Positions 13,228-38,420 of a stretch of DNA of 64,000 nt are shown here, piece after piece. The notes beneath the pieces were generated by a model. The model saw only the letters and a list, made by a program, of their open reading frames with translations. It was not told where the DNA came from and searched no databases. This stretch comes from Cryoendolithus antarcticus (Eukaryota > Ascomycota > Dothideomycetes > Cladosporiales > Cladosporiaceae), in assembly GCA_002077065.1 (NCBI GenBank), contig NAJO01000013.1, positions 1,021,140 through 1,085,139 of the forward strand, written 5' to 3'. A program made the translations under genes and the position numbers. The stretch's first letter is position 1. Every line of letters starts with the position of its first letter.

Positions 13228-14365
13228 ATGCTGGCTCTGGCATCGCGAGTTCGCCGGATGGTGCTCAGTTGCACTTTGGCAGCATTTTCGGGTATTGCCA
13301 TCTGGAGTACCGTGGAGTACAGCAATAAGGAAGCTGGAACCGTATTGAAGCGCTTCTTCAGGATACAAAGCGACCACGAGCACAGCCAGGCTCACAACAC
13401 ACCAGTGCCTGAACTTGCTCGAAGGCCAAGTGTGCCATGGCCGGGTCAGACATCCTGGTGCTTGACTCGGATGGCATGAGCTGATTATCTCCCAGCCACG
13501 ACTTGTGCGCCTGATGCAGGCCTGGGTGGGATACAGTATTGCTTCGCCGACCAAGCAAGCTGGACAGCCTTGCACACAATCTGGAATGCTGCCACTGCTT
13601 GGTGTAAGGGAACGGATGTTATGTTCCGCGCATTTCCGTGGCATGCGCTGACTTCATGAGGGACAACTGCAATGGTATTGTCATCTCTCAGAATACAGAT
13701 TGCCGAGACCTGCGACCCAATGTCTCTGCAGCCCTGCCTGTGCACGATCTCTGGCGTCAACGCACTCACAACACTCAAGCTCAAGCACACTCCCTTCACC
13801 AACGTCACTTTGTTACTACAGGCTTCGCAGTAGGGAGCAAATTACCTTGGCGGCACAGGTTGCTATTCGACGACCAGCTTCTGCACCATCTTGCAGACAG
13901 TGCAGAAGTACTTAACCAGCAGCAGCTTGCCTTCGTATAGAACATTATGATGATGGCTCATGAGATCGGACATGCCATTGCTCTGCAGCACGAACATCAG
14001 CGGTCTGATGCACACGACGTCTACAATAAGAAAGACGCGAGCCTGGTGTTGCACCTCGAGAACTTAGAGAGCTACGATGTTGCGCTGCACGATATCATGA
14101 CCATAAAAGCGAGTGAAGATGGGACTCTAAGCGGGCTGCCGCTCGGCCGGCAGTCTTCGAAGCGCGACACCATTAGTGAGCCGGCGTTTCACCCATGAGA
14201 GTCATCGTTCAGGACTATACCACAACGATTCGGCCTCTTCCGGCGCGAACACTGTCCGTCGGGTCCATGATCGGCAATACTCAGGCCGAGCGCTGCTTGC
14301 CGCAAGCATTGCTAGCCGCTGTGAACGGTGGGTCCGAGGATGAGGACGCCGACGGATTCGTCTAG
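13228..14365 (+). pseudogene. Astacin-like metallopeptidase copy A, pseudogene with internal deletion
   Basis: Exon 1 (13228-13444) encodes a hydrophobic leader and ends SVPWPG at a phase-1 donor. Exon 2 (13496-13603, 108 nt) reads TCAPDAGLGGIQYCFADQ. Exon 3 keeps CLCTISGVNALTTLKLK and then loses frame. The zinc site HEIGHAIALQHEHQRSDAHD is at about 13954-14010. Directly after the exon-3-like SEPAFH the sequence jumps, with a frame change, to the C-terminal module (PMRVIVQDYTTTIRPLP, about 14193-14240). Exons 4, 5 and most of 6, including the Met-turn, are missing. With no Met-turn and broken frames this copy cannot encode the enzyme. Confidence 0.8.
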
Positions 14366-14998
14366 ACGATCGATATTGACTGATCAGGAAGGAGCGGCAG
14401 TCCCGATTTTCGCCGAGGCTCTAGGTACACCACTGTCAGTCTTGATTAGTTTCGGCAAGTACGGCTGACCTCTCCTACCCGTTCGTCCCTCAGTTCATGA
14501 AGTCGCTCATCCTTCCTCCATTCTATTTATCGCCCAGCTAGTCGCGCCGCTTCAAGAGTAGATGCTTCAACGCCGCCTGCTGGCATCCCGTTTCACAGCT
14601 AAGGTCACCAATTTCACCACCGGAGCATTGCTTTCCGGTTCACGAAGTTCAAGAAGACACAGCCACAACTTTCAGACGTCTCTCAGCTTCGCATGTGTAT
14701 CTAAATCTTTGTTTGCTAGCCTCCAGTCAGCTACTTAGTATGGCACAAATCAGCACAAGATGAAGCAGTGTCAAAGCATCTGCGGGCATGGGTACCTTAC
14801 TGCCTTGTTCTACTTCCTCTACTGCCGCCGAGTTGAACAAGGCCATTCAGATATGCTTACACGTGGACACAGTTCTGTTCCGACGTTTCGTGATGAACAT
14901 AGCCTTGTGTATAATAGTACCTGTCACCCACGCAGTCTCCGCAACCGCTGGAGGGCTTCGCATCTTTCCACTATACATCACCCCCTCTGCAGCAAAGT
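14366..14998. other. Spacer between copies A and B
   Basis: 633 bp without a supported gene. It probably contains the copy B promoter. No copy-like exon was found in it. Confidence 0.4.
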
Positions 14999-16746
14999 AT
15001 GCGCACCGTGCAAAGAACGCGCCACCTCGTTGCGTTCGCCGCAGTCGTAGCACTTGGAATGACCGCACTGACGGTCCTATGGAGTTCGAAGCTACGCAGT
15101 GTCCACGCTCTTTCGCAACATTTGGCACTCACAATCTTCAAGCGCTACTTCACCTTTCCGAGTGACGATGAGTATGCGCATCAATCGAAGCAAATACCGG
15201 ATCGACTCCGCGTCTGGCCAAGTCAGTGCTCGCAAGCCCGCATACTATGTGAGACTAACAGGTTCAAGAGTCGACATGTCCCAGTTTCAGCGACACACAC
15301 GAGATCACATATTGCTTCGAAAAGAACGTACGGCGGAGAGACTGCAGGACTTGTTCATCCAAGCATGGCTGAATTGTAATGTTGCACGAGGTTGCTGGAC
15401 GGGGCAAAAGTGCTGACTGTATAGGGACTCCTGCCCTCATGCGATCTTCCTTGCTTGTTCGTCCCGCCTCGCCGTGCGCGATCGACGATTTCGGCTGCAT
15501 ATGTATACACCCGGTATAGATCCAAACGGCACCTTGATCATCGAGGGAGTGACCAAGAAGGGCACGCAAGCATCTGTAGGATACTACAGGTCTCGGACGA
15601 AGCTTGGGACAACTACGCCCAAATACGGGTCAAGATGCCAGAGTGTGTTTTGTCTACGGCGATGGACCATGTCACCTGACAACTCAGGGACTACTGGATC
15701 AGCGTCAATGTCCAGACATTCGCTCACAAGCCTGGTCATGTCATGGGACTGCAGCATGAGCATCAGCGTCCCGGAGCGTATGATATCAACAACAAGATTA
15801 ACCCTAGACTGGTCTTGAAGTATTGGGAGGTGTCGAGGTTTCGAAAAGGCAAAGCGCACTGTTGCGGCGCTTAAAGTCGAGCAAGAGCCCTGGCTGAAAG
15901 GTCTGGACATCGAAGCTCGAATACGGGGATTGTATGATACCACCCATCATGCAAACGATCACAAATTAATTGACGTGACAGACTTTCGGATTCGCGGCTC
16001 GCAGATAAGCACTGAAAAGGTATGTATCTGTCGTCACACTGCTTTGTGGCTATGCTGATATTTCATAGCTGTGTCTGGGTGGGCCCAAAGGGTTCCTAGT
16101 GTAGCAGCAGAGGATGCGCTAGTTGCTAGAGGCCCAATTGACACCAGGTCCCTCATGATCTATGGCACACCTCCCGGAACTGAGTACAACCTTCCACATA
16201 CACACGTCCTAGTCGCCATACACTGCTGACACCAATCCCTACTTTAGATTTGACAATCAAGGTGAAGCAACCGCCCTGATTGTCGATGCAAACCGCGGTA
16301 TACCTCTGTCGACAGAACCAGGTGGTATGTATTACCCACCTGTGTATCAGTGCGGTACCTGGGATCCCAGTCTTTGTGTACCATCGGACAGTGACATTGC
16401 GCGCCTGGCCCAGCTATACCCACTCCCCTCCCCGGCAGCTGGAGGCGAAAGTACAAATGCGCTATGGGGCAGACACCTTGCAAGAAGCGCGTCGAATGCT
16501 CCTCCAATCTGGCGGCCGATGCGCGTCACCTTGGGCAACGTGACCGCTACCCTGCGACCTTTGCCTTCTCAACCGCCGTTGAGATTCGGTAGCGACGAAT
16601 ACAAGAAGCTGAAAGCGTCGGTGCCTGCGGACTACGAGAAGCTTATAGACTCAGGCCTGTACTTCGTTAGTCAGCCCTTGTGGTCGTGTGCGTCTGGCAG
16701 TGGTGCTAAACTTTTCACAGGACGTCACCGATTCGGGCGGAAATAG
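14999..16746 (+). pseudogene. Astacin-like metallopeptidase copy B, pseudogene, catalytic Glu lost
   Basis: Exon 1 (14999-15221) gives a signal-anchor leader and ends VWPS at a phase-1 donor. Exon 2 keeps EITYCFEKN but then shifts frame. Exon 3 starts WTPALMRSSLLV, carries CICIHP and shifts again before GIDPNGTL. The zinc site reads HKPGHVMGLQHEHQRP instead of HELGH, so the general-base Glu is Lys. Another shift follows at about 15838-15845. Exon 4 has TGA where intact copies have Trp (DKH-stop). The Met-turn exon (DTRSLMIYG), the YQCGTWDPSLCVPSDSDIAR segment and the C-terminal module (PMRVTLGNVTATLRPLP) are still readable. Confidence 0.8.
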
Positions 16747-16837
16747 AAATGCAGCGCTCTCACACGGTGGGCCTTGACTGCGTTCTCGGATCTGTCGCGA
16801 CTGTTAGCGAAGCATAGCATCAGAGCTTGCTTTGCGT

Positions 16838-17270
16838 CGTAATCCCTTACCCTTTGACATTGACTACACATGCTATGCATGATTGAAGGGTCGAAGCACG
16901 TGGTGATATCTGGCTCTTCGTAGTGCATAGCAACTGCTACCTGTGCGGTACTTCGCACCCTGTTGCGTGCGTTCACTCGGCGGGCGACATGGCTCGAATT
17001 GCTCAGTTGTGGTCTCGTGATCTATTGGCTCGGAGTAAGTGACGAGCCAATCCATCGCAGGGTGCGAAGGTACTTCCGTCTAGTGCCACGCATTGGCGGC
17101 CCATGCGTGTCAGCCTTGGCAAACACTCTGCAGCTCTTCGACCGCTGCCGTCACCAACACCGATGCACTTTGGCAGTGAGGCTTGCAAGAAGCCGAAAGC
17201 TTCCCTATCACCAGGATCTGCAAAACGAATGAGCTTGAGGACGTATTTCGTGCTTCAACGGACGCAGGGA
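16838..17270 (+). pseudogene. Partial 3' copy of the metallopeptidase gene (fragment B')
   Basis: A second, partial 3' end follows copy B. It retains an eroded Met-turn exon (PFDIDYTCYA at about 16849-16882, Met lost), then YLCGTSHPVACVHSAGDMAR (about 16938-16997), then WRPMRVSLGKHSAALRPLP (about 17098-17155). Stop codons separate the pieces. Its C-terminal module resembles copy B most closely, with KKPKAS against KKLKAS downstream, so I infer a partial tandem duplication of copy B. No exon 1-3 material is recognisable. Confidence 0.65.
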
Positions 17271-17576
17271 CCCGATGATCGCTACGGCGGGCAATTTGCT
17301 GAAAGTGTCACCATGTCGAGATCATCGGCAATGAAAGTCACCAGGCATCGGCAAGTGGTGGAGTGTAAGAGGCACGATTTCACGCAGTCATGTCTGCTCC
17401 ATAGCATCAATGGTAGCAGTCGGTACCATCGGAGTACGTGATTGCATGGGCGCATAGTACAGACGGATCGGCTGTCACGTTGACCACACACAGCCAGCAA
17501 ACCACATCCACGCGCCAATGGTCGATCTGTAGCTCCTCCATGGTACCATATACGGTAATGTCGACACATCACGCAC
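17271..17576. other. Spacer upstream of copy C
   Basis: 306 bp with no supported gene. Presumed promoter of copy C. Confidence 0.35.
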
Positions 17577-19580
17577 ATGGGGGTTTCTACCATGCGTCTC
17601 CTCACAATCTTGAGACTTGCGGTCCTGGTCCTCACTACTCTGTCCACCTACCACCGATACTCTCGGAATGACTTCGTAACGAGACTCCGACAAGTCACAC
17701 GCCCCATCGTGGCTAGCGCCGCTTATCTCGATGAAAAGTTCCTGAAGCGCTACATCAGTGTAATGACGGACGACGAGTACACAGCAGCTATTCGACTGAA
17801 AGGCGAGAGGGTCCGAAAAGAGCAGCCCTGGCCAGGTAGGTTCTGCCACAACCCGACGAAAATTACTGATCATATCGCGCGCTAACAGTGCTTCTCCAAG
17901 AGTGTGCGCCACACTCTGGGAAGCGTACCCTACGGTACTGCTTCGAAGACGAGTACACCATGTCACAAATGCGAGTCGAGTTCATCGGTGCCTGGGCCTT
18001 TTGTATGGTCTTCCGTACATAGTCGGACCCCCGTTAATATCTAACGCATTTAACAGGGCAACCAGCACTTTCGGACAATAATACTGCGTCTTCGATCAGG
18101 ATAGCGCCTGCAAGGGAGTGCGGAGCGACAACTGACTGTCTATGTTCGACGCCCGGAATCAACAAGAGGCGAGTGTTAAAGCTCATGTACAGCGAGAATG
18201 CGACGCTAATCTCAAACTGTACACTTGGTTTCAACACAAACTCCAGTTCCCCTCATGATCCTTGGCCAAACAGATTGTTCTTTGTCCGTCGTTTCCTCAA
18301 GCAACTTGCAGAGCCGATCGAGACGGACGATGACCAGGACTTCCACGATTGGTTTGCAGCAGACAATAATCTCACTGTTGCACATGAGCTTGGCCACTGT
18401 TTCGGCTTGCTCCACGAGCACCAACGTCCAGGGGTGTACGATGCGTGGGGTGCAAGCGACCCAAGTATCATCTTCCGACCGCAGTATATTCGTGGCTATA
18501 ATGTCACGTTCAAGAAGATCAGGAACATGACGAATGAGCCAGCCTTTGATGGACTCGATGGACCCGCGCGGATCTGGGCTCTGTAAGCAGGAGGAGTGTC
18601 AGCAACGCGCTGAATAAGATACTGAACTATTATGCAGACTGCGGAACCTTTCCTTGGTCGACAAGCATTGGCCAGGTGAGACATTGAATGGCGCAAAGGT
18701 CTTTACGGCCCGCTGACCCAGACACAGAAGCCGGAGCATGGGCACCCATCGACAACGGTGGAATGGAACACATGTTCTATGCCAGCGGCGGACCGGTAGA
18801 CCTCAAGAGTGTCATGATCTACAGTTCGACCACAGGCGTATCGTATGTAGTCACATCGCTGGAAATCTGTCTCCTAATTGCGCTAATCCATTCAGCGTGG
18901 ATGGTAAGGGCGAAGCCAGGGGGTCTATCATACGCGATCTCAAGACCTGGGAGGACGACCTCGATTGGCCTCAAGGTCGCCGGTACAATCAGATCCATCC
19001 GTGTGGCACCCCAGATCCACGGAAATGTACCGGACCATCTGATGGCGATATTGCTCGGATGCTCGCGCTGTATCCTGCTAGGGGTCCGACGACTCCCAGG
19101 GATTCGCTTGAAGATCGAGCGCTGCAGCGAGTCGCGGTGGGATCAGCTTATAGGCCAATGGTCGTAATCAGAGGCGACGTCTCGAGGATCGTTCGACCAG
19201 GGGCACCGCAGACGCCGTCCAAAGGTGACTATAATGGGTATCCTTCTGGATACCTTGCACAGAAAAGTGCAGATTTGGACTACGATACGGTGGGAAGCCC
19301 GTTGGTATCATGTAGAAGCTCGCTAATGCATCACGAAGTAGGTCTTGCGCAGAGTGGACCACATGGGTATCGCTGCTACACGCTAAGTGACAACAACGTT
19401 GCGAAGCATGGAACGATGGATAAAACTGTTACTGTGCCTGCGGCTGAGAAATCTCATGTCCAGATCTCTTCGTCGATAGTCGCACAGAACGCGCATGGGA
19501 GACCTGCAGCGGCAGCAGGAGGCATCGTGGTCTCGATCTGTCAGAGGTTTGGAGCCGCACGAACGAAATTGGTTCGCTGA
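17577..19580 (+). CDS. Secreted astacin-like (M12A) zinc metallopeptidase, copy C, intact
   Basis: Model join(17577..17835,17889..18002,18057..18582,18638..18675,18728..18842,18896..19580), 578 aa; a second ATG at 17592 is equally good. Intron phases 1,1,2,1,2 match the other copies. The leader RLLTILRLAVLVLTTLST suggests secretion. Exon 2 has ECAPHSGKRTLRYCF, exon 3 CLCSTPGINKRR and the full zinc site HELGHCFGLLHEHQRPGVYD. Exon 5 has the Met-turn SVMIYSS. CGTPDPRKCTGPSDGDIAR then leads to LALYP, comparable with the closing helix of astacin domains. The C-terminal module (PMVVIRGDVSRIVRP) is followed by an extra tail of about 120 residues. All zinc ligands and the catalytic Glu are present. 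Predicted to be an active secreted endopeptidase; substrate unknown. Confidence 0.85.
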
Positions 19581-20000
19581 GATACTCGGTCGAAGGAGGT
19601 TTCCCTAACGTTGATCTTCATCTCTCGTGATTGATCATGTTACCTCAGTTAATGCTGCGCTTTTCTACTCGAGAAATCTGGCGTTAACGCTCCGCTTGTA
19701 TCGCGGCACCTGCTGACACGAGGGTATACGTTTAGCGAACCATGTGTGCCAACATGCTCTGATACAACCCACAACGACTATACTGATCAACGCAGGGCTG
19801 CTGGAGTTCGTTGGATCAGCCCATGCTCTACGACTGCGGGGCAGTTCTATGGTAGATTCTCGCTGACGCGCAATGCAAATGAGAACGGTGCTTCTCTTGA
19901 TTTCAACTTTCAATCGCAACCGTTTTCATGCTCATGTCGGACCTCATCACCGGTTAACTCAGCTTTCCTGCGCAGCGACATCGTGGTACGCTCTCAATTA
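19581..20000. other. Spacer between copies C and D
   Basis: 420 bp. The leader-encoding start of copy D should lie here, but I could not find an open leader in frame with its exon 1; the frame meets TAA upstream of it. Confidence 0.35.
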
Positions 20001-21536
20001 GGAGACTCAAGCGCTTCTTCGGCATCGTCACTGGAGCTGGTTATGATGCTCGGAAGCAGGGCAACCCGATAGTTGAAGTCTACAAGCTCTTCGGTGCCAT
20101 GCCCGGGTAAGTCAATTCGCTGCATCATGCCTTCGGTCAGGTTCTGAAGTGTACAGACTATTCAACAGGTCGGGACGCCATGTGTTGCGTTACTGCGTTG
20201 ACGATGTAGAAGCCGTGGACGCGCCATGGGTCCTCTTCCAAGCTGCTGCAATGTTTTGTACGCTATCACCACACTCTTGTACACCTTTCGGAGGCTCACG
20301 AACACAGGGACACCGGCGGTACAGCAGTCGTCGTTGGTGATCGCACCGGCAACGCCGTGAGGTGGGAACACTAGATGTCAATGCAACGAGTTTGGAATCG
20401 ATCAGCAACGCACGCGCAATATCACCCTCGCTCCCACAGACAGCCACTCCCTTTGCTCCGTCGGCTTCATGTACACGTCGGCTTTGCTATGGCATCATAC
20501 CCTATCTTCACGCATCCCGTACGTCGCTGGAAGCCAGAGGATCCCTCATACTCTGCTCGAGCTGGATTGGGACGAGTACTTCACTCGCCTTGCGGTCATC
20601 AATATGGCCCACGAGCTTGGTCACGCCATTGGTCTGCTTCATGAACACCAGCGGCCTGGCATGTACGACAACTTCAATTATAAGGATCCCACGATCATGC
20701 TCCGCCCTCAGGATATCGAAGGGTACACCGCCGCATTCGAGAACGTTAGCAAAACAAGTGAGCAAGCTGAACCGACCTTCAAAGATCTCAACAATCCAGC
20801 CCGGATTAACATACTGTACGTAGGTCGTTGCAGAACAAAACGCGCGAGTATGCTAATGGCTGATGCAGGCTCAGCGACATCGGTCTCTCAGAGAGACATT
20901 GGCCAAGTACAAGCGCGAGATTCGTCTGGCATAGGAACTAGACTGATCCAAGTCTCAGACACCACCAATCACGTACAAGTGTCTGAGTAAGACATCATGT
21001 CTATGGAGCTGATCGACGGTGGACCTTTTGACAACCAGAGTGTCATGTTATACAATGGCTATGATGGTCGTAAGATAGCCGGCCGGATTCATCGAATCTG
21101 GCCGAACACTAACGAACGACAGGCAAACCAGTGGATGGATGGATCAGAGAAGCTATGTTGGGCGCAAGGGTGACTGACTCTGCGCGACGCACGTGGGGAG
21201 CGGCGCTACGGTCTATTGCGCACCTGCGATGTTACGAATATCACGAAGGGTGAAGGACCATCCAAAGGCTACATCGCAAGGGTCGTGCAGCGCTATCCTC
21301 GTGGCGCTGCGGAGTCGAGTACAACGCAGATCAGCCCTGCTGCTACTAGACGAGCGATAAAGCAAACCCGAGAAGAGCCAGCGATCAAGCCCATTCGAGT
21401 GATCATGGAAGGTCTTACCATGACACTGCGGCCGGCGGTGTCGCAAGTCCCGGTTATAAATGGAAGCGGATACGATACCAATTTGTGGAAAGCGATGCCA
21501 TCGGCGTGGACAGGACGCCGTTCTTCTCGCCAATGA
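20001..21536 (+). pseudogene. Astacin-like metallopeptidase copy D, pseudogene with nonsense codons
   Basis: Readable parts in order: end of exon 1 (RLKRFFGIVTGAGYDARK, to 20106), exon 2 (20169-20257, GRHVLRYCVDD), exon 3 from 20308 (WTPAVQQSSLVIAPATP, then TGA at 20358-20360 where copy C has Cys), CQCNEFGIDQQRTRNITL, and a complete zinc site HELGHAIGLLHEHQRPGMYD. Exon 4 reads LLSDIGLSERHWP. Exon 5 has an in-frame TAA before the Met-turn QSVMLYNG. A further shift precedes CDVTNITKGEGPSKGYIAR, and PIRVIMEGLTMTLRP closes it. The active-site sequence is intact, but two stops and a frameshift make expression of an enzyme unlikely. No leader peptide was found. Confidence 0.75.
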
Positions 21537-21722
21537 TACAGCGATGTAGACATAATGTCGGGCTCATCTCAGCTGCAGTACTTCCCATATGGCCGCCCAC
21601 GCACGCTCACATCTACTGTCGGCGCCACGTGTCAGACACTAGAAGCTCACTTGACAGCAGAACCTTGTGTGGTCGCGACTTGAACCCTCTTCAGGAACAA
21701 CTCCAAGCGACTGACTTCGGCG

Positions 21723-24057
21723 TCATCTCTGCTCAAAGTTAAAGCCGCCTGTATCGAAATCACCAAGCATCTGCCATTGGTCTGGGCCGTAAGCATCGTG
21801 CGCTAGGAATGGCAGCACTCCAGAGATCTCCATGAGCCAGCTGTTTGGATCAGTCGTCACCCCATCCAGCGGCATCGCGCTGGCAAGTGCACCAGTTTCC
21901 GGGACCCGCATAGAGGCTGCACTTTGGGTTCCTTGCATCTGAGATGGTAGAGCAGAGTTGCCAGTCGATGATCCCTCCGACATTGGGTCCTGGCGCCTGA
22001 TGTGTATCCTACCCAGCAGAGGAACCCTCAGGCTGACGTATCGTGAGTTTGCCAGGTTGTTGTTACTCAGAAGTGCGGACAGTGATCGTATAGTACGTGC
22101 AGCCTCTTGGGCGAATTGCCCGCCCCCAGTTGCCTTTGACGCCAAGTCCATGCTGTCTACGACTTGCTGTATCAGCACAAGAGAAGTCGGTGTTCGGGAT
22201 GAGTCCATTAGTTGCGAGCTGCCTGGACTATAACACGTATGAAGGAGGAAGACTGCAGCGGTGAGTGCTTGCACGTCGAACAATCGTACCGGAAAGAACC
22301 CGCCTAGCACCAGAGGGCGTAGTACAGCGTAACGGGCAGCCAGATCTCGACAAACTTCGGTGCAGACCATGTGACTATAAGCGTATGTGTTGCTTCGATT
22401 GTTGTGGAGGGCGAGCTGCAGGTGCGCCCTCGCTGTAAAGTATTGCTGGAAATACTGGAGGACCAGATCCAGTGTGATCTTCTTGTGATCCGGACGCACG
22501 TCCCACCAAGACATGGGCGCGAGACTTGTCAACTCTCGAAACTCTTGATCTATGCTCAACACCATGTCACAGACTTGACGAGATGGCCGTTCTTTGACGG
22601 AGAGATCGTCCAGCGCTGGGATCTTGCCGGCGATATCTGCCAAGCGGCAGAAGTACGCTTGGGGAACGAGATGCGTGCCTACGAAGACCGGTCGATCTAT
22701 TGCAAACGAAGACATTCTGGCAGTTATGGGGAGACCGAACATGCAGCCCGCTAGTCGTTCCATTGTGCAGGCCGATTGCCAAAGTAAGGCACCGGCTTCT
22801 TCACGGGTCTGTCCATTTCGAGTCCGGCCAGACTCCCCAGATCGATCCGTGGAGGACGTGTCAGAAGCACGAGGCAACCCGATGATCTCTGCGAGGGCGA
22901 TTGTACGGCGAAGACCGAGCCAGACTTTCTGGAACCTAGCATGCGCAAAATGCCTTCAAAGTCAGTAAGCGAATGTCCAAAGATTTAGCACTATACCTAC
23001 AGTCGCTGAAAGAGCAAGGAGACTTCGATGCCCTCCAGCGTTCCTGCGAATACATCGTCATTCACTATGTAAGTCTCGATCGCATCTGAGACGGCTTGAG
23101 AGTACGCTGATACATCGATCAGCTGGCCGTGTAGAGAGCTCTGTGGCGTGAGGTGGATCGCCTGAGCCGTGATCAAAAGGACGGCGGCTATTGCCGCTGG
23201 TTGTGCATCAAGTCCCCTCACTTGGTCCCAGTCCAGCATGAGCTCATCCTTCGTCCTAGCAATGAAAACCAGAGGTGCGATTGAGTTCGCCCACGTCAGC
23301 CATTCCATAGCTTGTGCTACAAGGACATTGGCGTTCTCTCTAGAGACCATCAGAGCCTGGAGCGCATTCCTTGCTCGGGACAACCGCCCCTCGGAGAATT
23401 TGGGTGAGTGTCGCGGAGCATGCTCTCGGACGTTGAGCAGACCGTGGTTGAAAAGTACCCGAAGATGCGATGGCTGAAAGAGTTGACCATAGCCGTCAGC
23501 GAGAGTAACAGAATTGTCGAGGGTTTGTAGCTGTCACTCGCTTACCGTGCTCGCTACTTGGTCCGACATTTCTGATTCCGAGTCCATGTCGATATGCTCG
23601 CCATGCCTACCTTCAGTCACGTCGTCGAACACAGGCTCAAGTGCAGCAGGTGGTGTGTTGGGCCACTGAGCCTTCACATATCTCGAAAGGCTTGTGTGCT
23701 TTCCCTCGAGCCGCGCAATGCGCTCTTCAAGCCGTGCAATACGCTCTCGAGAGCCCAGCCTCAGCGAATCAACGTTCCGAGCTGCGACTGTTTGAAGCTC
23801 GCATGCTCGATTGCGCTCCGAACAATGTCGACACGACTGTGCCTCTGCGGATGGCCACAAGCAGCGGATCTTCCGTTGCCGGCCTGTGAATGTTCAGCAA
23901 TGCACGAAAAGGTGGTACACCATGCTGACATTCGATACAGCTGCCCAGATGTCAGCTTGATGATACTTTGTTGCCAAGATTGGAGTGGGTGATACACGCC
24001 TCTGCGTCCCCCGACGAAACTTGTGCGGTGCGTCGTCTTGCATTGTCGAGTCCGCAT
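21723..24057 (-). CDS. Zn2Cys6 fungal-specific transcription factor
   Basis: Model complement(join(21723..22953,23001..23473,23546..23883,23930..23940,23996..24057)), 704 aa. The zinc cluster is assembled across three exons as CIECRQRKIRC, a nine-residue loop, then CRHCSERNRAC: spacing C-x2-C-x6-C-x9-C-x2-C-x6-C, a perfect Gal4-type cluster. The middle exon is only 11 nt. A short coiled coil (RIARLEERIARLEGKH) follows for dimerisation. The large C-terminal region (PSHLRVLFNHGLLN, FAHARFQKVWLGLRR) is the usual fungal TF middle region. It diverges from the membrane-protein gene and splits the metallopeptidase array. Whether it controls neighbouring genes is unknown. Confidence 0.8.
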
Positions 24058-24493
24058 TCATGTCTTGGTGCGCGCGCGGTCCGAAACACTGATTGCGCGA
24101 GGCTGAACTTGAGAGAAAGTTGGAATGTCAGAGGATGGACCAGAATGATCGGGTAGCCGAACGCTACGGATATTTCGGCGCGGAGATGGACGAGAGTTGG
24201 GGCGCAAGCGGATGAAATTGCAAGAAACGGCGAACTTGGGTAAGACAGTAAGTTTTGGGATCTGATTGATTGATGATGGATTTCTAATATCAACGGCGTG
24301 ATAGCGATATGGTGGCAAGTCACCAGGAGGCTCCAGTGATGCCTAATCCAAAGTCTCCGTCAAAGAAAGGTGCAATAACCGCACCCAAGAAGCGCCAGCC
24401 GCCGAACCAACACAGATACCCTTTTTCAACGAGCGCTACAGAATCTTTATTTCTTAGCACTATTGACGAGGCCGTCCTGCCGCCTCGTCATCG
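24058..24493. promoter_or_regulatory. Divergent promoter region TF / 7-TM protein
   Basis: 436 bp between two outward-facing starts. No feature other than this shared promoter role is supported. Confidence 0.35.
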
Positions 24494-25543
24494 ATGGCAA
24501 GCCCTTCAAGCTTCCCCCAGCGTGTTAGTATTCACCCTCAGAAGCCTGATCAATCACACTGACTGCCGGAGAGCCACCGTATGCGCAAGATACCGCCAGC
24601 GTTGGTGGAGTACCCAACAAGACCCTCGATGTACCCGTGACGGCCGTCTTCCTCTTCGTATACTTTTGCCTTGCGGCCACGAACATAACGATCTTCCGAC
24701 TCAATCAACGCAGAAATCACAAGTTCATCATCTCTGGACTACTCGGAGGGTTTTGCAACGTACGGACAATCACCTGCTCTCTGCGCATCGCTTGGGCATA
24801 CAATCTCGACAATGTCAGTCTTGTGATCGCAGCAGAGATCCTCTTAAACGCTGGAACTCTTCTCATCTATTTCGTCAACGTGGCCTTCGCACAACGTATC
24901 CTGAGGGCGAAGCAACCAGGGATCGGCTGGAAGCGTTGGTTGAGCGTTGCAATCAAAAGCCTATACGCTGTGATCGGAGTCGTTCTCGTCATGACCATTT
25001 CGACCCTCGTTCTGAGTTTCTATACGCTCAATCAGCACACTCGCAACGTCTGTCGGGACGTTTACCTGTTCGCGACCAGTTACCTTCTGTTCACCGCAAT
25101 ATTACCCATCGCCCTCTTGCTATCCGCCTATCTGCCCAAGCGCTCTCCTCACGCCGAGCAGTTCGGCCATGGGACTACCGAGCTCAAGACGCTCATCTTG
25201 GTTGTGACGAGCTCACTTGGTATCATCATTGCTGGATTCCGAGCTGGCACCACATATATGACACCTAGGTCGGTAACGACACCGGCATGGTACGTAGGCA
25301 TATCCAATTCGTGCAGACGTTTAATGACATTTTGACCGGCTCAGGTACGACTCAAAAGCCTCCTTCTACTGCTTCGACTTCGTACCGGAAGTCCTGGTCC
25401 TGCTACTATTCGTCATCGCGCGCGTAGACTTGCTCTTCATAGTGCCCGGTGACAGCAGTAAAACTCACTGCTACAGTCAGTCCAGAGGTGTAGAGGAGCA
25501 GAACGATTTAAAGGAGTCCGTTGAGTCGGGAGTGTCGGGATGA
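24494..25543 (+). CDS. 7-TM integral membrane protein, fungal DUF3112-type
   Basis: Model join(24494..24521,24572..25289,25345..25543), 314 aa. The short first exon (MASPSSFPQ) is joined by a 50-nt intron with a weak GTGTTA donor but a good CTGAC branch site. This restores GGVPNKTLDVPVTAVFLFVY, the usual start of the family. Seven hydrophobic segments follow, with the family landmarks RIAWAYNLDNVSLVIAAEI, FAQRILRAKQPGIGW, GFRAGTTYMTPR and PAWYDSKASFYCFDFVPEV, and a short polar tail. Such proteins are often labelled family-C-like GPCR or DUF3112; the function is not established. Confidence 0.75.
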
Positions 25544-26127
25544 GGTAGAAGAACACGAGCACTACGTAACAAGTCGATCGACGCGCACTGCATCTGCAGA
25601 GTCACCAAGCAGGTTTCACTATCACGGCCACCGTCGGCGATGTTGACGTATGTGATATGGCAGACTCATCGCTTGAATGGTGTCCTACAGCGAAGACCGT
25701 ACAGTATGTGCAATCGATTTTGAGTTGTAGGGTTGCCAATAGGAACGAACCAGGTACGTGTTCCGGTATGTGATAAAGCAGCGTGACGCTGGTCGAACAT
25801 TGTAAGTTGATGAGCATGGCACATGACGTAGATTCCTCTCGTTGATTGTGTATTCCTCCGAAATTCTGCCGCGCGGAGCCGAGAATGGACGAAAGTTGAA
25901 CGTTCATGGCCCGACGCACGCTGCAGGCGGCTCATCAGACCAAGTGTACCAACTTCTCCGTCGTTGATTGCTAATAGCACGCGGTGGCTGACGAACCCAT
26001 CAGTCGTAGATCCCGGCGTTAAGATGAGGGTGCTTCACCCCATATGTAGTGATACTGCTTCGAATCGAGTGAAAGTCAAAGATCTCATTCCATAGCGGAA
26101 GCATCAGGTCCACTAGGAGTCAACAAC
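25544..26127. other. Intergenic, upstream of the cupin gene
   Basis: 584 bp. Short antisense frames only; no conserved protein or RNA recognised. Confidence 0.4.
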
Positions 26128-26691
26128 ATGGCAGCCCTCTCCCCCAACGATAAGTCTGGGTTCTCAGCACCAAGCCGACACATCACCACACACGACGAGA
26201 AAGGAGTCTCTAAATTCCTACCTGACGATGTCATCTCGGCGAACCCTTCATGGGGGCAATTTTCGCCGCATATATTCGGCACCTTGCTGTGGGGCACAGT
26301 CACGTCGCCGGCGAAGATGAGCGATGAGGCGGACGTGGTGGCGTTCACGTCGGGAACGCTCAACCCCTCCGACATCGTCACGAGAAATGGGACCAACATG
26401 CGCATCTTCGACTTCGCGCCCGGCTTCAAGAGCGAAATGCACCGTACGAATAGCGTCGACTACAGTATCGTCCTTCTCGGTTCCATCGAGAATCAAGTGG
26501 ATGACGGCGATGTTCGAGTGGGTAAGCCTGGGGATGTCTTCATTCAGCGAGGCACGAATCATCTGTGGCGGAACCCGAGTGAGACGGAATGGACCCGCAT
26601 GGCCTTCTTCGTGGTGGCGGCAGACCCGGTGGTGGTGGGTGGTAAGGAGCTCGAGACGACAACGTCGGTCGAGTCAACGGGGGAGAAGTGA
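26128..26691 (+). CDS. Small cupin-domain protein
   Basis: Single exon, 187 aa. The C-terminal half is a single beta-barrel cupin: FDFAPGFKSEMHRTNSVDY is the first motif with its His, and GKPGDVFIQRGTNHLWRN is the second with its His. The N-terminal half (GFSAPSRHITTHDEKG, FGTLLWGTVTSPAKM) is typical of fungal cupins found near oxidoreductases. The substrate cannot be told from sequence. It lies between the 7-TM protein gene and a convergent dehydrogenase gene. Confidence 0.75.
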   Translation: MAALSPNDKSGFSAPSRHITTHDEKGVSKFLPDDVISANPSWGQFSPHIFGTLLWGTVTSPAKMSDEADVVAFTSGTLNPSDIVTRNGTNMRIFDFAPGFKSEMHRTNSVDYSIVLLGSIENQVDDGDVRVGKPGDVFIQRGTNHLWRNPSETEWTRMAFFVVAADPVVVGGKELETTTSVESTGEK

Positions 26692-27109
26692 TGTCTTGTC
26701 AGAGGATGCGTCAATAGTTGCTCTGGTCTCCAGGCAGTGGAATGTCATTAGAAGTGGGCTTGAGATGATATGTTAATCCTTAGTACCGAGATGTGTCTGG
26801 GACAATCAAACACCCTTGCCAGCGATCAATTCGTGGCAATCTCTCTGCATCCAGGATACCTTACCTCACGTCTCACAAGAATACTCCATCTACCCCATAC
26901 TGCAGCATCTAAGCAAATCGTAGGCAGGGGTACATTTGACACTCCCGCAGCTCTGCATAAGCACTTCAGCCACAAGTCGTCGACTTGCTACAGCCACGCC
27001 GCAGGCAGTGAGCGTAGTTTGCTTCTCCGTCCAACCACTCGAGCACAGTCCAACTATGTGCTTCTGCATGGACATCTTCGACTTCCGCATCTCTAATCTC
27101 AGACCTGTT
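26692..27109. other. Convergent intergenic region, cupin / SDR
   Basis: 418 bp between two 3' ends; no gene supported. Confidence 0.4.
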
Positions 27110-28167
27110 TCACATTGGAACTCCATTCAGTCCACAGGTGAGCAACATCGAGTTCTCGATCTCGCTTGACCTTGCGACCAGCTCGTCCACATCCCAATTC
27201 GCCCAGACGATCTTGTTCTTGAGGAACCTGGCCTCTGGCGATGCCAACCAGACGCAGAAGTGACCAGGCAACTCAGCTGTTCGTTGTCATCAGCGAGCTC
27301 TCATACTGGCCATCTACTTGTAAGCAACTTGCCTGAGTCGGGCGCTTTGACTCCCATCTGCGCGCTCATATTCGTAGCAACCGTACCAGGCTGCATGCTC
27401 ACAATGTGGAATCTGGGGTTCTCCGCCGCGAAGTAGTCCATCATCTTCAGCGTGGCGGCCTTACCGACTGCATAGGCGCTCGCGCCCGGCAGTGGAGCAA
27501 TGTGTGCCGCAGCGGCCGTTATGCTGATGATCGTAGCATTCGGTGGAGCCAGCGGGAGGAAAGCATGAACAGTGTTGAAGGTCGAGAGCACGTTGATGCT
27601 GAAACCGATTGTGAACTCGTCGGCTTCGTAGCCTGCGAGAGGTCCAATAGCTGGCAGGACAGCTGCATTACACACGAGGATGTCGATCTTTCTGATTTGG
27701 GCCAGAATGGATCGGAGCGCTCTGTCAACCTCCTCACGCTTGAGCAGATCGGCTATCTCGTAACCAACAACGGAGGCGGCATTTGTAGCGGCAGCTCTGA
27801 TGTCGGCCACAGCGGCTATAAGACGACCGTCGTGACGTCCGAGAATCGATACTGACTGTGCGCCAGCTTGAGCGAAACCTATTGCGATTGCTTTTCCAAT
27901 TCCTACACTCATGCACGGTCAAGTCAGCTAGCTGGTCTCAAGGTGCTACAACACAATGCGGATCTTCCCCATTGAGAAAGTGAATTTCGCACCTGTGCCT
28001 CCTCCAGTCACGACGACGTTCTTGCCATTGGCAGAGAGCGCAGGCCGAGAAGGTGAAATTCTGTCATAAGCCTCGTGGTGTACATGATTTGTGAAGTACA
28101 CCTTGATAGGGACCCTGACTCTCGCCGTGGCGCCTGAATCTGAGCGCAATGACATCTCACTCTCCAT
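27110..28167 (-). CDS. Short-chain dehydrogenase/reductase (NAD(P)-dependent)
   Basis: Model complement(join(27110..27276,27333..27902,27993..28167)), 303 aa. Joining exons 1 and 2 gives VVVTGGGTGIGKAIAIGF, the Rossmann TGxxxGIG motif. ILVCNAAV is the NAG-type motif, ISITAAAAH the catalytic Ser strand, and YAVGKAA the YxxxK site; SMQPGTVATNM follows. Exon 3 supplies the substrate-side end (LPGHFCVWLASPEARFLK, WANWDVDEL). The second intron is best read with a GC donor (AG|GCAAGT, 56 nt); a GT donor 21 nt downstream would give an unusually short 41-nt intron. The long N-terminal leader before the Rossmann fold is unusual. The substrate is unknown. Confidence 0.8.
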
Positions 28168-29013
28168 AGCTTGAAGACTGTGCGAAGTATGGTCCCCCGG
28201 GTAAGTGCGGTGTTGGAGAGCTAACGCACGAGATCGTGCTATCGCATTACATTTGTAACCTCTGAGATCGTATTGCCACTAGAGCCGCACGTGGAGCGTC
28301 TGTCAGTCAAGCTGATATGCCATGACTCGTCCGGCCTACCACTCAAACGCAACGGATCTGGTTCTCCCAAGCGATGGCCAGATTCGCCTTTGATCTTATC
28401 AACCGCAGCGTACGGTCCGGCTCGACTGCATGCCGGACCCGAGAATGGACGAAGGTGCGTCGGCTAGTCTTGAATCGACTTCGTCAACAGACCGACAATC
28501 CTCTCAGAGGTACCTTCGCATGCAAACTTGTCTACACCTCCTAGATATACTGTGGAAGTGATGGAGAGCTTGCACTTGTTCCTCCGAAGGACCCATCATA
28601 CTGCTGTCCTCAATTAGGCATTCAAGTTCTTAGCGTCAGGACTCCGACTATAGCATAAGCCGCAGCTGATGCGTGCGTTCGAAGACGATCTTATGCATGC
28701 AAACACGAGCCATTTGGATTTGGCTTTGGCTTTACGTTTGGTGTCCTGGATAGTCCATAGCCTGGCCAACAGTCACACATGCCAGTGCGTGATAGCTCGT
28801 TGCACGGTCCCGCAACATCCACCAATACGGCTGTTTCCTGCCTGTCGACATGTCGAACGAAGAGCGACTTGCTTGGGCATCTGGCTCGTGTGACGCCCCC
28901 TAGCGATGTTTGCTACAACAATTAGGCAGAACCTGTGTTGATGGCTTTCGTAATCGCTCCAGGCGTAAGCAAATCAAGACCACGACCAGCTGGGGGCATT
29001 ACAGTCAGTCAGA
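28168..29013. other. Intergenic spacer upstream of copy E
   Basis: 846 bp between the SDR start and copy E. No conserved frame or protease exon was found. The minus-strand side carries the SDR promoter, the other side the copy E promoter. Confidence 0.4.
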
Positions 29014-30713
29014 ATGCTCCCCAATCGTCGACGGTCGACACTTTTTGTGGTTGTAGTCGTCGCCTTCTTGCTCCTGGTGCGACACATGCGAGCCGGCAAA
29101 GTCGAGATTGGAAGCCCTCTGGGAAGTGCGAATGCAAGCCCCATGACGATACCCGCGACTCTCCCCGCACGACTGCTGTCCGCACGCAACGCGGCCACAA
29201 AATGATTCCTGAGCATCATGACCCCTTCCGAGTGGGCTGCAGTCGGGGGCAAACCGAGCGGGGCGGCAACAGGCTCATATAGATCCCAAATACCATGGAA
29301 AGGTGAGCGCAATGCATGGCTTTGGGAGCGTACTCTGCTGACTTATACGTTGGGACAGGTTGTGAATCTTCTTTGGATCGCCCCACCATACCGGTCTGCT
29401 TTGCAGATCAGAGATCACTCCTTCTGTTGTCCGACATCTTTGCCGAAGCGGTAGCGTTCTGTAAGTCAGCTCCATGGGCAGAGTGAACCATTGACATCAG
29501 CATGTCACTGACAACCATCGAAGGGACGCCAGCGCGGCGTGCTTGCTGGAGGGTCGGCACTTGACATCTCTGCAGCTCCCCCTTGCCGGGACTCCAAGTG
29601 TCTCTGCAACAAGGCGGGCATTGACAGCATGAAGACTCTCAAAATCATATACATTGATCCCAACGGGCCGTAAATTCGCAAACCCAACGGGCCTCCAGTC
29701 AATAGTCGTTGTAGGATAGGTTTCCAGTCCGGCGACCAAGTGGAGTGGATGAAGAAGCTACATTTCCGGCCACAGAGTATGACCTGGAAAGCTGCGTCAT
29801 CTAGCAATGCCGACAAAGAGTGGTACAGAGGATATGACAGAGTGACATTCGCACATGAATTGGGTCATGCAATGGGCCTCAAACACAAGCATCAAAGACC
29901 TGGCGCCCATGATCTTCTCGCAGGTGCTACTGCACCGTTGCAGTTCCATCCGGAACATACACCTGGTTTCTTCGACGTGATGAACAAAGTCACTAGTGCG
30001 AGCGATACAGCGTTCCACGGATTGCTGCCCGTGGCACGGGTACTCAAACTGTAGGCTGCTTCTACACCGCGAGTAGCTTAGACACCAACGTCTGCGAAGA
30101 TTCTAAGACAGAGACATGATGAAGAAGTACTAGAAAGGTACGGCATGACATAAAGCGCAGCCACTGAGTCAGACTGATCATTCCAGATGCACGGCCCTGG
30201 ACAGTAGAAGACCACGCCTTTACCTTGCCAGGCATCAACTCACAGTGGGGAGGCGATTTCGACTTCAACAGTTTCATGCTATACAGCGGTTGGCAGGGCG
30301 TACAGTGAGTCGGCCGCAGTGGCAATGAGCTCCTCCCAATTGACATACTGACAGCACCGTCCGTTAGGCCAATAGAAGGACTTTCTCACGATGAGATTAT
30401 GCAAAAGGCTGATGGAAGTCCCGTGTACATGTGTGGTGTTAGAGAATGGCCTAATTGTTCTCGACCTTCACCGGGAGACACAGCTAGAATCGCAGCGCTA
30501 TACCCTAGGTCAAGCACGACGACTGCATTGCCTGCTCTAACTTCGGGGTCGGAGTTCAGACCGATGAGGGTCGGAGTCGGAGTTGTGACAGTCACTGTAC
30601 GGCCTCATCCACTTTCAACAACATCGCCAGATTCAGTCACTAGCAACAAAAGTGCATTCGAGGGTTATCCGGACGGCTTCTTCGACAACCTCGATTTTCG
30701 AACCAAGTGGTAA
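29014..30713 (+). pseudogene. Astacin-like metallopeptidase copy E, pseudogene
   Basis: Exon 1 (29014-29302) has a strong hydrophobic leader (STLFVVVVVAFLLLV) but a TGA at 29203-29205, just before FLSIMTPSEWAAVGGKPSG. Exon 2 (29359-29460, 102 nt) is intact with IPVCFADQ. Exon 3 shifts frame near 29535 before CLCNKAGIDSMKTLK and then contains a 45-nt intron-like insert (29670-29714). The zinc site HELGHAMGLKHKHQRPGAHD keeps all ligands. Exon 4 reads with two stops, one in place of the conserved Trp. The Met-turn (FDFNSFMLYSG) and C-terminal module (PMRVGVGVVTVTVRPHP) are in good condition. Several independent lesions make this a pseudogene. Confidence 0.8.
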
Positions 30714-31263
30714 GAGTACACCCGCAAAGAAAGCAGAACCGGAGGGCTCGTGATGCTGACCCAGAGACCGCAGGATTACATCGAAGACGCTTTTGGGGCG
30801 TCCAGCGTTGATGAGAAGCAGTAGCTCACGGGCGGGATTGGGTTTTGATGATATCTGGACATGATTTGCCTGGCCATAGTGATGAATGAGTAAGCTGCTC
30901 GCTTGAACGGTCCAAGCACGCTGAGCGCTCGTTTGGTGCTTGCTTCTCAACCAGCCTGTTGCTGATAGAGGGGGTCCCGATGACCAGGACACTGAAGTAC
31001 ACCCACTGCATGACGCGGGCAGATCTAAATGCACTTGGAAGCCCGGGATTCGGCAGAGCGGTTGAGCGCTACGGATGCTGGTCGATGGCGCTCAACCGGA
31101 TAGATCATAGGTGTCCTATATTCTCGTGCGTGCATGGCCGGCCTACGTGCCAATGTGTGCTAGAGGTGACAAACATTGTCGTGCCAGACTTTCTTTCAGG
31201 AATAGAGACCTAAATCGAGGTAGCACTGTTGAAACACCAAGACATGACTGTAATTTGCCCGCC
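30714..31263. other. Spacer between copies E and F
   Basis: 550 bp; no gene supported. Presumed promoter of copy F. Confidence 0.4.
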
Positions 31264-33085
31264 ATGCCATCGAGATCAAAGTGGCCGACCGCGATCATTA
31301 TCTGCGCCGCACTGCTGCTCTTCATCGCAGCACCCGCAAGTTACGAGCAACACCACAGTCCGGGATCTCCTCCCACACGAACGATCGATAGTTCGACATG
31401 GCATTGGATTGGACTTGAGCGCAGAATGCGCACCAGTCGTTTGCCTGACAAGCGCTGGTCGAGCATCATGACGACCGCCGAATGGAATGCCGCAGTGGGG
31501 AAGCCTGGAGGCGCTGAGAAGGGCTTCAGATACCAGAGGCTGTGGCCACGTGAACTCCAGCTATCGAGTCGCTCACACGCTGAACCTCCGTGCTAACTTG
31601 CTGACAGCTTGTGCGCCGGGATCTGATCGCAGTACGATGCCAATCTGTTTTATGGACCAGAATTCATATGATGAGCTGTACGAGATGTTCAGCCAGGCAC
31701 TCGCCTTCTGTACGTACAAAGCATTCCGCTGAGCCCTCCCCCTGCGGAACTTCTTGGGAGCAAGGCACTGATCACCGTCTAGGGGCACCGGCGTTGCGCG
31801 TCGGAGGAGGCTCGTCGCTGGACATCATTCCTGCACCTCCCTGTACAGGATATAAGTGCTTCTGCAGCACACAAGGCGTGGATCCTCTGAATACACTCAA
31901 AATATCCGTGCTTGCGCGGGACAGCGACGTGGATAGCGCGACGAGCGTCGGGTTCTCATGGACTGGTATACACCCATGGTTGAATACCTTAGAATTCTAC
32001 CCGGAGGGCCGTGAGCCTTATACCAAACCGGATGCTGCAAACAGGGCAGCTTGGTACAAAGAAGCGAATAGGGTGACCTTCGCGCACGAGCTCGGACATG
32101 CGATAGGGCTGTACCACGAGCAACAGAGACCTGACTCATATGACAAGCTCGCTGGTCAGAGTGCGCCTCTAGAGTTCCGCCCTTGGTTTGTCCCAGGATA
32201 TGCGGATGCTCTGAAAAAGGTGGCTGGTGCCAACGAACCCATATTCAAGGGCCTTGCTCCTGTAGCTAAGTTGCTCAAAGTGTGAGCACTCATAGCACAC
32301 AATTCCGTGATAAGCGGAACCAAAGCTGATAAGATTGCAGGATCGCAGATGTCCGCTTGCAGTCGATTTATTGGGAAGGTACGATGCGCACTTTCCTCCG
32401 TAGGCTGATACACTAAGCTCACTTTACACTAGATGCTGGAGACTGGGTGGTTGAGTACCATGAGAACGCCCCCGAGGGACAGAGCGTACGATCGGGAGGT
32501 CCATTTGACTTCTATAGCATCATGCTATACAGCGGCACCACAGGGAACGAGTAAGTCAGCGTAACAATAGGCCGCGCAGGGACCGGACCAATACTAATTT
32601 AGGCATACACCAGTGTACCAGAAGGGCAACCCAGAGAAGAGATCTACCGCAAACGTAATGGCGATCCAGTCTATAAGTGTGGGTTCAAGGATCCCAAGTT
32701 CTGCCAAGGACCATCGTCCGGAGACGTCTCGAGAGTCGCCCAGCTGTACCCAACAATGACTGGCACGCCATCAAGACCGAGTACTGCATCCCGCCTGACC
32801 GATGCACCATCAAAGCCGAGTACTACATCTCGCTTGCCATATGGGCCGATGAGAGTGATCGTCGAAGGTGTCACTGTGACCGTGAGGCCGACACCAACAA
32901 GCATGCCGTCTGCAGCGGAGGAGAAGAATGCAACAGACTTCCGAGGGTTTCCGGACGACTACTTCAAGCAGCGGCGACCTCGAAGGCGGCCGGTCAGTGT
33001 TTGCACTTTCACATCATCTGAACTGGAGACGTACGCTGACCATGTCCAGGACTACGTGATTCCTACTCCCAAGGCGGGCACGTGA
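31264..33085 (+). CDS. Secreted astacin-like (M12A) zinc metallopeptidase, copy F, intact
   Basis: Model join(31264..31549,31608..31709,31783..32281,32341..32378,32433..32550,32614..32992,33050..33085), 485 aa, intron phases 1,1,2,1,2,0. The signal peptide is PTAIIICAALLLFIAAPASY. The pro-like region holds MTTAEWNAAVGKPGGAEKG, and exon 2 CAPGSDRSTMPICF. The catalytic exon has PPCTGYKCFCSTQGVDP and the zinc site HELGHAIGLYHEQQRPDSYD. Exon 5 gives the Met-turn YSIMLYSG. CGFKDPKFCQGPSSGDVSRV and AQLYP end the peptidase domain; the C-terminal module is PMRVIVEGVTVTVRPTP. The last 57-nt intron is a multiple of three and open, so it might be retained. All catalytic residues are present. Confidence 0.87.
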
Positions 33086-33582
33086 GTCAAAACCGGAGGA
33101 CAACATTGAATGCCAGCCGGACCTTGATAAATATTCGGGGGAGGCATTCCCAGTGGAGAAAACCAGATGATCAGGCCAAGACGGAAGTTTGTCAACCCGC
33201 TGAAGATGACCGTCGATCGTGATTGGACCGCGGGATGCTGGATCGAACGAAATCGCCAGCAAATATGCTCCCATCACTGCTTCACTTCCCAATTGTCATC
33301 TCTGCATTTCCATGAAGCACATCTAGGAAGCCTATGACAGCCGGATTCACATGCGTCCAGGTATAAAGTTGTGGAACGTATCTGCATGCACGACCGTTGA
33401 TAGTCCGTTTCTTTGTGAGCAAGCATTACCATGCCATCTCTCATCATATGCCACGAATTTGCTTCGCTGGCGGTGTTTGCCTAGGCCAAGACAGTCGTCA
33501 TGGATCCGAGCTGAGCTGTGACCGGAACTGCTTCGAAAAACCTTTCCATCAGCACGTACCACCCCCTCCGAAGTCGACCAGT
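33086..33582. other. Spacer between copies F and G
   Basis: 497 bp; no gene supported. Presumed promoter of copy G. Confidence 0.4.
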
Positions 33583-35323
33583 ATGACCTGCGGTGTCGGC
33601 CGACTGAGAGTCGCAGCGTTGGGCAGCGTCGCCCTGCTCGCCCTCGTGACCTCTGTGAGCTACGGCTACGACGTCAGCGTTGCCGACCTCCCCTCGCAGA
33701 CATCAGCATCCCTGTCATGGCATGCAGGTCTGATGCAACACGTGCGCTCCGTAGGGCGAGCGCAGCACATGCGTTTCTCGAGCATCATGACATCACTAGA
33801 GTGGGACGCAGCGGTTGGTAAGCCTGGAGGCGCTGCAATGGGGGCGAGACATCAATCAGTGTGGCCGCGTGAGTGGCGAGACGTTCTTTGTCGAATTGTT
33901 GGCAGGTTCGTGCTAGCCGTTCGCCAGCCTGTTCACCTGGATCAGATGTACACACTCTTCCAATTTGTTTCCGGAACCAGGAAGCCATGGACGTTCTGTT
34001 TGAGATGACTCTCCAGGCAATCGGATTCTGTATGTCGTTCTGAAGTTCCTCCTTACTACCTAGGATCACCAGGAAGGCGCTAATCGATCGCCAGGGACGC
34101 CCGCACTGCGCGCAGGGAAGGGCTCGGCACTGATGATCTCCGCTGCGCCACCCTGTGTAGGGTACAAGTGTCTATGTACCGCTCCAGGTGTGGATCCTAC
34201 GCGCACACTCAAGATAGCACTAATAGCACTGGACGATGAGGACGAGGACAGCAATTGCAACGTAGGCTTCTACTCCAAAGATGGCAAGCCGTGCCAGAAT
34301 CGATTGGCATTTTGGCCAGAAGGTCGCGATCCATACACTGGTCCTCAAGTCGCAGCGAGAACAGAGTGGTATAAGAAAGTCAACAAGGTGAACTTGGCAC
34401 ACGAACTTGGGCATGCGATTGGTCTATACCACGAACACCAGAGACCGGGTTCGTACGATAAGATTTCAGGCAAGGGTGCGCCTTTAGAACTCCGTCCATG
34501 GCTTATTCCAGGCTATCCCGAAGCTCTCAAGGCGGTTGATGGCAAGAGTGACGCGGTCTTCCATGGCCTCAACCCGGCGGCCAGACTGCTCAAAGTGTGA
34601 GTGAAGACTCAGCCGTACGTGACACCGGAGCTCACTTAGCTCACACAGTTCACAGGCTTGCAGATCAGCGGCTGGTAAACACGCATTGGAAAGGTATGGC
34701 GTGCATCTTCCTCACCCTTCATATACGCCGAGCTTACTGCTGCCAGCGGCCGGAGATTGGGGAGTCGAGGACCATGCGAATCTCCCCAATGGAGAAAGTC
34801 TACAAGCGGGAAAAGACTTTGACATCGATAGTGTCATGTTGTATAGCAGTACAGCAGGGGTCGAGTGAGTCCAATGGAGAGTCGTTCATGTGACCACTGA
34901 ATGCAAGACTGATGAGCATGGCCTAGTGCACCAGCGGGTCAGCCTCAGGACTGGATTTACCGAAAAGCCAACGGCGATCCAGTGTACGAATGTGGGGTGG
35001 AGAATCCGACACTATGTCAAGGACCCTGACCCGGAGGCATCGCAAGGATCGCCCAGCTATACCTGACGACGACATCTGGCACGCAATCGGGGCCAAGTTC
35101 CACGCCAGGCCTCCAGTACGGACCGATGAGAGTGATGATCGAGAGCGTCACTATGACTGTAAGATCGCGACCGACTGATGCAGTGGCGAGGAATACAACA
35201 AGTGTCCAAGACTACCCAGAGGACTACTTCAAGAATCTGCGGATACCCAAGGGACCAGTAAGTCGCGTCGTGATATGTTTAGAGTGAGACGTGGCTGATC
35301 GTGTGTAGGATCACATCATATGA
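33583..35323 (+). CDS. Astacin-like metallopeptidase copy G, C-terminal module cut off by one stop codon
   Basis: Exons 33583..33868, 33928..34029, 34095..34596, 34656..34693, 34747..34864, 34927..35257 and 35309..35323. Sizes match copy F almost exactly (286, 102, 502, 38 and 118 nt). Leader: RVAALGSVALLALVTSVSYG. The zinc site HELGHAIGLYHEHQRPGSYD and Met-turn IDSVMLYSS are intact. A TGA at 35027-35029 replaces the Ser of the GPSxGD segment, giving a 382-aa product. After it the frame stays open through IARIAQLY and YGPMRVMIESVTMTV to a natural TGA at 35321. The encoded protein lacks the end of the peptidase domain and the C-terminal module; activity is uncertain. The natural end lies 36 bp from the end of sro7 on the other strand. 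Confidence 0.8.
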
Positions 35324-35359
35324 GTCTCGGACGTGCAGAAGACGATCGCAATGCAGGAC

Positions 35360-38300: not shown

Positions 38301-38420
38301 GGAGACTTGCGAGTTGACTCCAAAGCGAGCCAGGTCATCAAGAGCGAAGAGATCGGACGTCAGGCCAGCTGAGAGGTCATTGGCGATGCCGGCTTGCTTA
38401 CCGCGGAGCAGGTGGGCCAT
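35360..38420 (-). CDS. sro7: Sro7/Lgl-family exocytosis and polarity protein
   Basis: Model complement(join(35360..35385,35441..38420)), 1001 aa. The start at 38420 (MAHLLRGKQAGIANDLSAGL) is the usual N-terminus; upstream codons are open but unlike the family. It has double seven-bladed WD40 propellers (TGYEDSSIVFWDVNKDG, TSHADATIRLWDIGHG) and the Lgl C-terminal domain. Near the end comes the SNARE-like tail YMQRQVQERTERLGL and SNWLEDVNKFVGKQ. A 55-nt intron leads to a 26-nt last exon ending LIKARFGL, a typical Sro7 finish. The protein binds t-SNAREs and Rab GTPase for exocytosis at the plasma membrane. It marks the right edge of the protease array. Confidence 0.9.

Follow-up and report, generated by a model that had tools for sequence, protein, structure and literature searches.

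The window analysed here, a 64-kb stretch of DNA at the end of contig C35 of Cryoendolithus antarcticus, contains eight related loci. With a probability of about 70%, they represent an old gene cluster near the telomere, encoding astacin-like zinc metalloendopeptidases that are divergent and probably exported. Those loci for which a partner can be assigned would already have been separate before the two homeologous chromosome sets of this fungus split, and the losses that followed would differ from one set to the other. All eight loci (A, B, B', C, D, E, F and G) lie on the + strand at about 13.3-35.3 kb, where the original prediction had placed them, and the TTAGGG repeats in which the window ends, about 28.6 kb from the array, agree with its description as subtelomeric. 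The features of the region are the following:

12101..12886, + strand: left flank, gene with a Vps51/Exo84 N-terminal domain
13345..14250, + strand: locus A, relic with an in-frame stop, later exons not found; zinc motif at 13959-14003, remnant of the tail motif near 14190-14250
15140..16695, + strand: locus B, relic with stops and broken frames, in which the Met-turn and the end segment can still be recognised; zinc motif altered to HKPGH at 15725
16923..17162, + strand: locus B', 3' end alone, matching the 3' end of copy b on contig C74
17577..19580, + strand: locus C, open, 6 exons, 578 aa from the first ATG; zinc motif at 18383-18427
19985..21452, + strand: locus D, relic interrupted by stops, deleted from C74 almost entirely; zinc motif intact at 20610-20654
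21723-22955, - strand: large ORF between D and E, no Pfam hit
24550-25335: DUF3112 gene between D and E
26053-26691: cupin-like sequence between D and E (25.5 bits, under the cut-off of 27.2)
27301-27918: short-chain dehydrogenase gene between D and E
29014..30683, + strand: locus E, relic with stops, one small exon lost; zinc motif at 29854-29898, HKHQR variant
31264..33085, + strand: locus F, open, 7 exons, 485 aa, above the Pfam Astacin cut-off; zinc motif at 32085-32129
33583..35320, + strand: locus G, gene structure complete, the last large exon interrupted by a single in-frame stop; zinc motif at 34400-34444
35316..38534, - strand: right flank, Sro7/Lgl-type WD40 gene
63893..64000: telomeric TTAGGG repeats at the contig end

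The repeats of the predicted tandem array are real, but they do not form one run, because about 7.5 kb with unrelated genes separates two clusters, A-D and E-G. The predicted states of the copies were borne out: C and F are open and have GT-AG introns, G is interrupted by one stop, and A, B, B', D and E are broken by stops, missing exons or frame breaks. The intron phases (1,1,2,1,2) are common to C, F and G, as had been expected, and the paralogs align to F with 31-46% identity. For C, an alternative start at the sixth codon (17592) gives a protein of 573 aa; this start is likelier than the first ATG, since it is the one used by the GenBank model P0009 and, in the counterpart on C74, the longer reading is interrupted by a stop at codon 4.

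In a six-frame translation of the whole 64-kb window, the pattern H[EK]x8H[EKD][HQ]QR gave seven matches, all within the array and one each in A, B, C, D, E, F and G. The strict HExxHxxGxxH, altered in A and B, was found five times (C, D, E, F and G); for both patterns the mean in 60 first-order Markov simulations of the window was 0.0. The claim that all eight loci share the same motifs therefore stands in part: the zinc motif or its remains are present in seven, while A could be aligned only up to a point before the Met-turn, the CG..C..GDIAR end segment is degraded in D and B' is a 3' end only. Met-turns were taken from spliced alignments; a D...SxMxY pattern proved too strict and gave one unrelated place. 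The S and Y of SxMxY are invariant in six aligned rows, in which the M column has one Ile (copy b of C74), and all three residues are invariant in a second alignment of 13 rows.

The proteins encoded by the complete copies have a hydrophobic stretch at the N-terminus and then a pro-segment, which in most cases closes with a dibasic site followed by an aromatic residue; a metzincin domain containing HExxHxxGxxH and SxMxY comes next, and the tail is variable. The N-terminus is hydrophobic in all seven rows examined, and the dibasic site occurs in 19 of 21 hand-picked rows (it is absent from G of the window and from P0014; E was outside the row set). On this basis, the hydrophobic stretch would export the protein and a kexin-type protease would remove the pro-segment; the three His residues would bind zinc, with the Glu as general base and the Tyr of the Met-turn as an extra ligand. 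The predicted enzyme might digest protein outside the cell for nutrition.

C. antarcticus was previously known as Rachicladosporium antarcticum CCFEE 5527 (PMC10739867), and its published assembly is described as comprising 47.4 Mb and 18,781 genes (PMC5502844). Since a Tibetan Rachicladosporium genome is given as 24.6 Mb (PMC12560822), this size fits a doubled or hybrid genome. The homeologous telomere lies on C74, which starts with CCCTAA repeats; most stretches of its first 65 kb that align to the window are 85-88% identical and a few 63-77%, and residues 1-326 of the Sro7-type neighbour have two matches in the genome, one on C35 and one on C74. The cluster is present on both homeologs, but the surviving copies differ. 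C, E and G have counterparts on C74 (c, e and g), of which c has a shortened tail and e is broken as well. At the place of A, the flanks and the end segment are kept on C74 and the zinc exon is gone, and of D only the 3' end is left. On C74, copy b, of which the window has only the 3' end (B'), is open as far as it aligns. An F-type copy was not found on C74, where a different copy, f, is present and open over its aligned length. Remains of f beside F in the window were considered and rejected, the alignments being short and weak (scores 45 and 30). The open copies would thus be C and F on C35 and b, f and the short-tailed c on C74.

A tree of the zinc exon with 27 rows (B', C110b, C62b, C61, C70 and C74 a were left out) joined C with c (support 100/98), E with e (100/99) and G with g (83/95), its deep branching being weak. 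Since C, E and G pair across the homeologs, the duplications behind these pairs are dated before the homeolog split, and by parsimony the change since then looks like mainly loss. The G homeologs have their stops at different codons (380, and 383 in the window), which indicates that they were truncated separately; a G-type sequence is intact in protein P0003. The truncation removes the GDIAR segment, which we take to be the last helix of the metzincin domain, so that the truncated G is probably impaired.

The ratio dN/dS between homeologs was 0.119 for the catalytic part of C (bootstrap 0.07-0.18) and 0.088 for that of G (0.05-0.14). Higher values were obtained for the pro-region and tail of C (0.40, 0.21-0.77, and 0.80, 0.36-2.06) and for the pro-region of G and the part after its stops (0.87, 0.52-1.50, and 0.53, 0.26-1.23). 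For E, the zinc exon gave 0.215 (0.11-0.40) and the last exon 0.37 (0.18-0.79); the Sro7-type neighbour gave 0.056. None of the homeolog estimates was significantly above 1. The catalytic parts of C and G are under purifying selection, and their pro-regions and tails are more loosely constrained. Introns diverge between homeologs by 0.186 in C and 0.176 in G, and this divergence (0.18-0.19) is below the homeolog dS of 0.29-0.34, so that dS is no clean neutral yardstick.

Between the array and the telomere there is a HET-domain (heterokaryon incompatibility) gene at 43261-45078, and near the telomere an ORF with a Tle1-like phospholipase catalytic domain (Pfam, 135 bits) at 59505-60965. The segment 60001-64000 has a RIP-like signature, unlike the remainder of the window (for 62001-64000, TA/AT 1.95 and (CA+TG)/(AC+GT) 0.31). 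RIP was rejected as the cause of the decay, because the indices of the array match those of the remaining window and are abnormal only in the last 2-4 kb.

Three protein searches, in each of which about 8000 candidates with the most words in common were scored and distant relatives may therefore be missed, gave 14 proteins, 13 of them at E ≤ 0.001 and P0014 at 0.31. The named sources are Rachicladosporium sp. CCFEE 5018 (four), Oleoguttula sp. CCFEE 5521 (three), C. antarcticus (two, P0004 and P0009) and Meristemomyces frigidus (one). Direct counterparts of C, D, F, G and copy f of C74 occur in CCFEE 5018 (P0001, P0002, P0008) and CCFEE 5521 (P0003). P0001 is 98% identical to F over 78% of the query and has F- and G-type stretches, P0002 has F- and f-type, P0008 C- and D-type and P0003 f- and G-type stretches; as regards the original refuting condition of a single-copy gene in relatives, CCFEE 5018, judging from its proteins, has neighbouring copies as well. 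The public models P0001, P0002, P0008 and P0009 fuse adjacent array copies, P0009 being C plus D. The proteins of Oleoguttula sp. CCFEE 5521 (P0003, P0006, P0007), which is filed under Teratosphaeriaceae, are nearly identical to the C74 copies, and P0003 and P0004 share 97% identity; the name of strain CCFEE 5521 may be wrong, or the strain may be closely related to one parent.

Further members of the family were found in the same genome on C110, C57/C71, C62, C1, C61 and C70. A second, smaller tandem pair lies at C110:72192-75914, and its first member appears to have no introns between the first exons. The copy at C71:296667-298164 has an in-frame TAG just before the zinc motif, at a place where its C57 counterpart and P0005 are open. 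The minus-strand frame at C61:246555-247061 aligns only in its N-terminal part and has no zinc motif; its likely counterpart at C70:82516-83828 has an altered one.

The original prediction that the proteins are astacins was upheld in part. Checked against Pfam PF01400 (Astacin, cut-off 22.5 bits), F (30 bits) and P0004 (27 bits) pass, whereas C (17.5) and P0005 (19.1) remain below. All six aligned family members touch PF01400 at E values up to 0.1, and the matches span only about 20 residues around the zinc site. No NCBIfam model scored above its cut-off for seven proteins. Profile hits in the PDB were weak (the best, TLL-1, with E 3.4e-4 over 19 residues), and the predicted structure models were poor (mean pLDDT 48.8 and 52.8); Foldseek with these models gave no match at E 0.001 or better, and their structure matches were scattered over several metzincin families. 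The strict M12A signatures, which we take to be HExxHxxGxxHExxRxDRD and SxMHY at the Met-turn, are missing: the DRD is absent from C, F, G and copies b, c, f and g of C74, and SxMHY from the window copies, in which the Met-turn is SxM[LI]Y. With these signatures missing and C under the Pfam cut-off, we regard the array proteins, from their sequences, as astacin-like and not as clean M12A members.

The comparison with known proteins bears on the reading that these are members of a separate metzincin family, whose resemblance to astacins is limited to the zinc site. The shortness of the Pfam matches, the low scores of C and P0005, the lack of RxDRD and MHY, the distance of more than 90 residues from the zinc loop to the Met-turn and the spread of the structure matches would all fit it. 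The array copies share the zinc loop and SxMxY with animal astacins and bacterial myroilysin (BMP1, crayfish astacin, 5zjk), but differ from them in the strict signatures, in a longer stretch from zinc loop to Met-turn, in the dibasic pro-segment and in the extra tail. However, when a four-row profile of the array family was compared by hhalign with one made of five Astacin-positive rows from fungi and metagenomes, the two matched across 333 columns (E 2.5e-43, probability 100). This homology to P0012 (M. frigidus LTR85_007585) and P0014, which both pass PF01400, is whole-length, and the P0012/P0014 group shares with the array copies the WP...CF strand, HExxHxxGxxHEHQR, SxMxY and the GDIAR segment. 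P0012, which has the dibasic pro-site too and also a tail with PMRV, carries HExxHxxGxxHExxRPDRD and SIMHY and reaches 54 bits, as compared to RP[GD]xYD-type loops, SxM[LI]Y and 17.5-30 bits in the array copies. A separate family is thus very unlikely.

That no copy yields a working enzyme in this fungus, the cluster being a relic, is unlikely, though a little less so. Five of the eight window loci are broken, copies are deleted on C74 and G is truncated on both homeologs by different stops; on the other side, uninterrupted frames are found in C and F, whose introns are canonical, and in b and f as far as these align, and the catalytic dN/dS values are 0.12 and 0.09. The array had also been proposed to consist of secreted proteases diversifying rapidly against hosts or competitors. 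Clustering, subtelomeric position, the divergence of the paralogs and the faster pro-regions and tails would suit such a role, and astacin-family gains have been tied to plant-pathogenic members of Mycosphaerella (PMC3087541). Yet the fungus comes from inside Antarctic rock (PMC5502844), the paired loci were probably separate before the split with no evident new copy after it, the catalytic parts are constrained and no dN/dS is significantly above 1. We consider this proposal, whose host-directed part has only the looser pro-regions and tails behind it and which our results do not support, quite unlikely.

The reading of an old cluster of astacin-like genes with differing homeolog losses is thus preferred. 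The supposed rarity of the family in ascomycetes holds to some extent: M12 genes are given as 0-3 per genome for nine ascomycetes (values outside brackets, PMC3158057) and PF01400 genes as 0-2 in a fungal set (PMC2409186), but nine M12A are given for Ochroconis mirabilis (PMC4738786), and there are the gains in Mycosphaerella. We found no paper on the present array in the open-licence PMC literature.

Subtelomeric tandem gene families of fungi gain, lose and break copies near the telomere. The predicted ascomycete gene turnover with decay is supported, and the array is an example of such turnover and no new kind of system; it differs from other fungal subtelomeric families in that its copies can be compared one by one between two homeologous telomeres. 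Given the five broken loci and the stop in both G homeologs, the family may be disappearing. More tentatively, the genes could belong to a lineage-restricted, astacin-derived subfamily of exported peptidases of Antarctic rock fungi, with a repertoire pieced together from two telomeres with complementary losses, the core being held and pro-region and tail free to vary. The region offers a copy-by-copy natural experiment on the erosion of a subtelomeric family after genome doubling or hybridisation, in which constrained catalytic cores are seen beside loosely constrained pro-regions and tails, and in which fused public gene models would mislead family counts in rock-inhabiting fungi.
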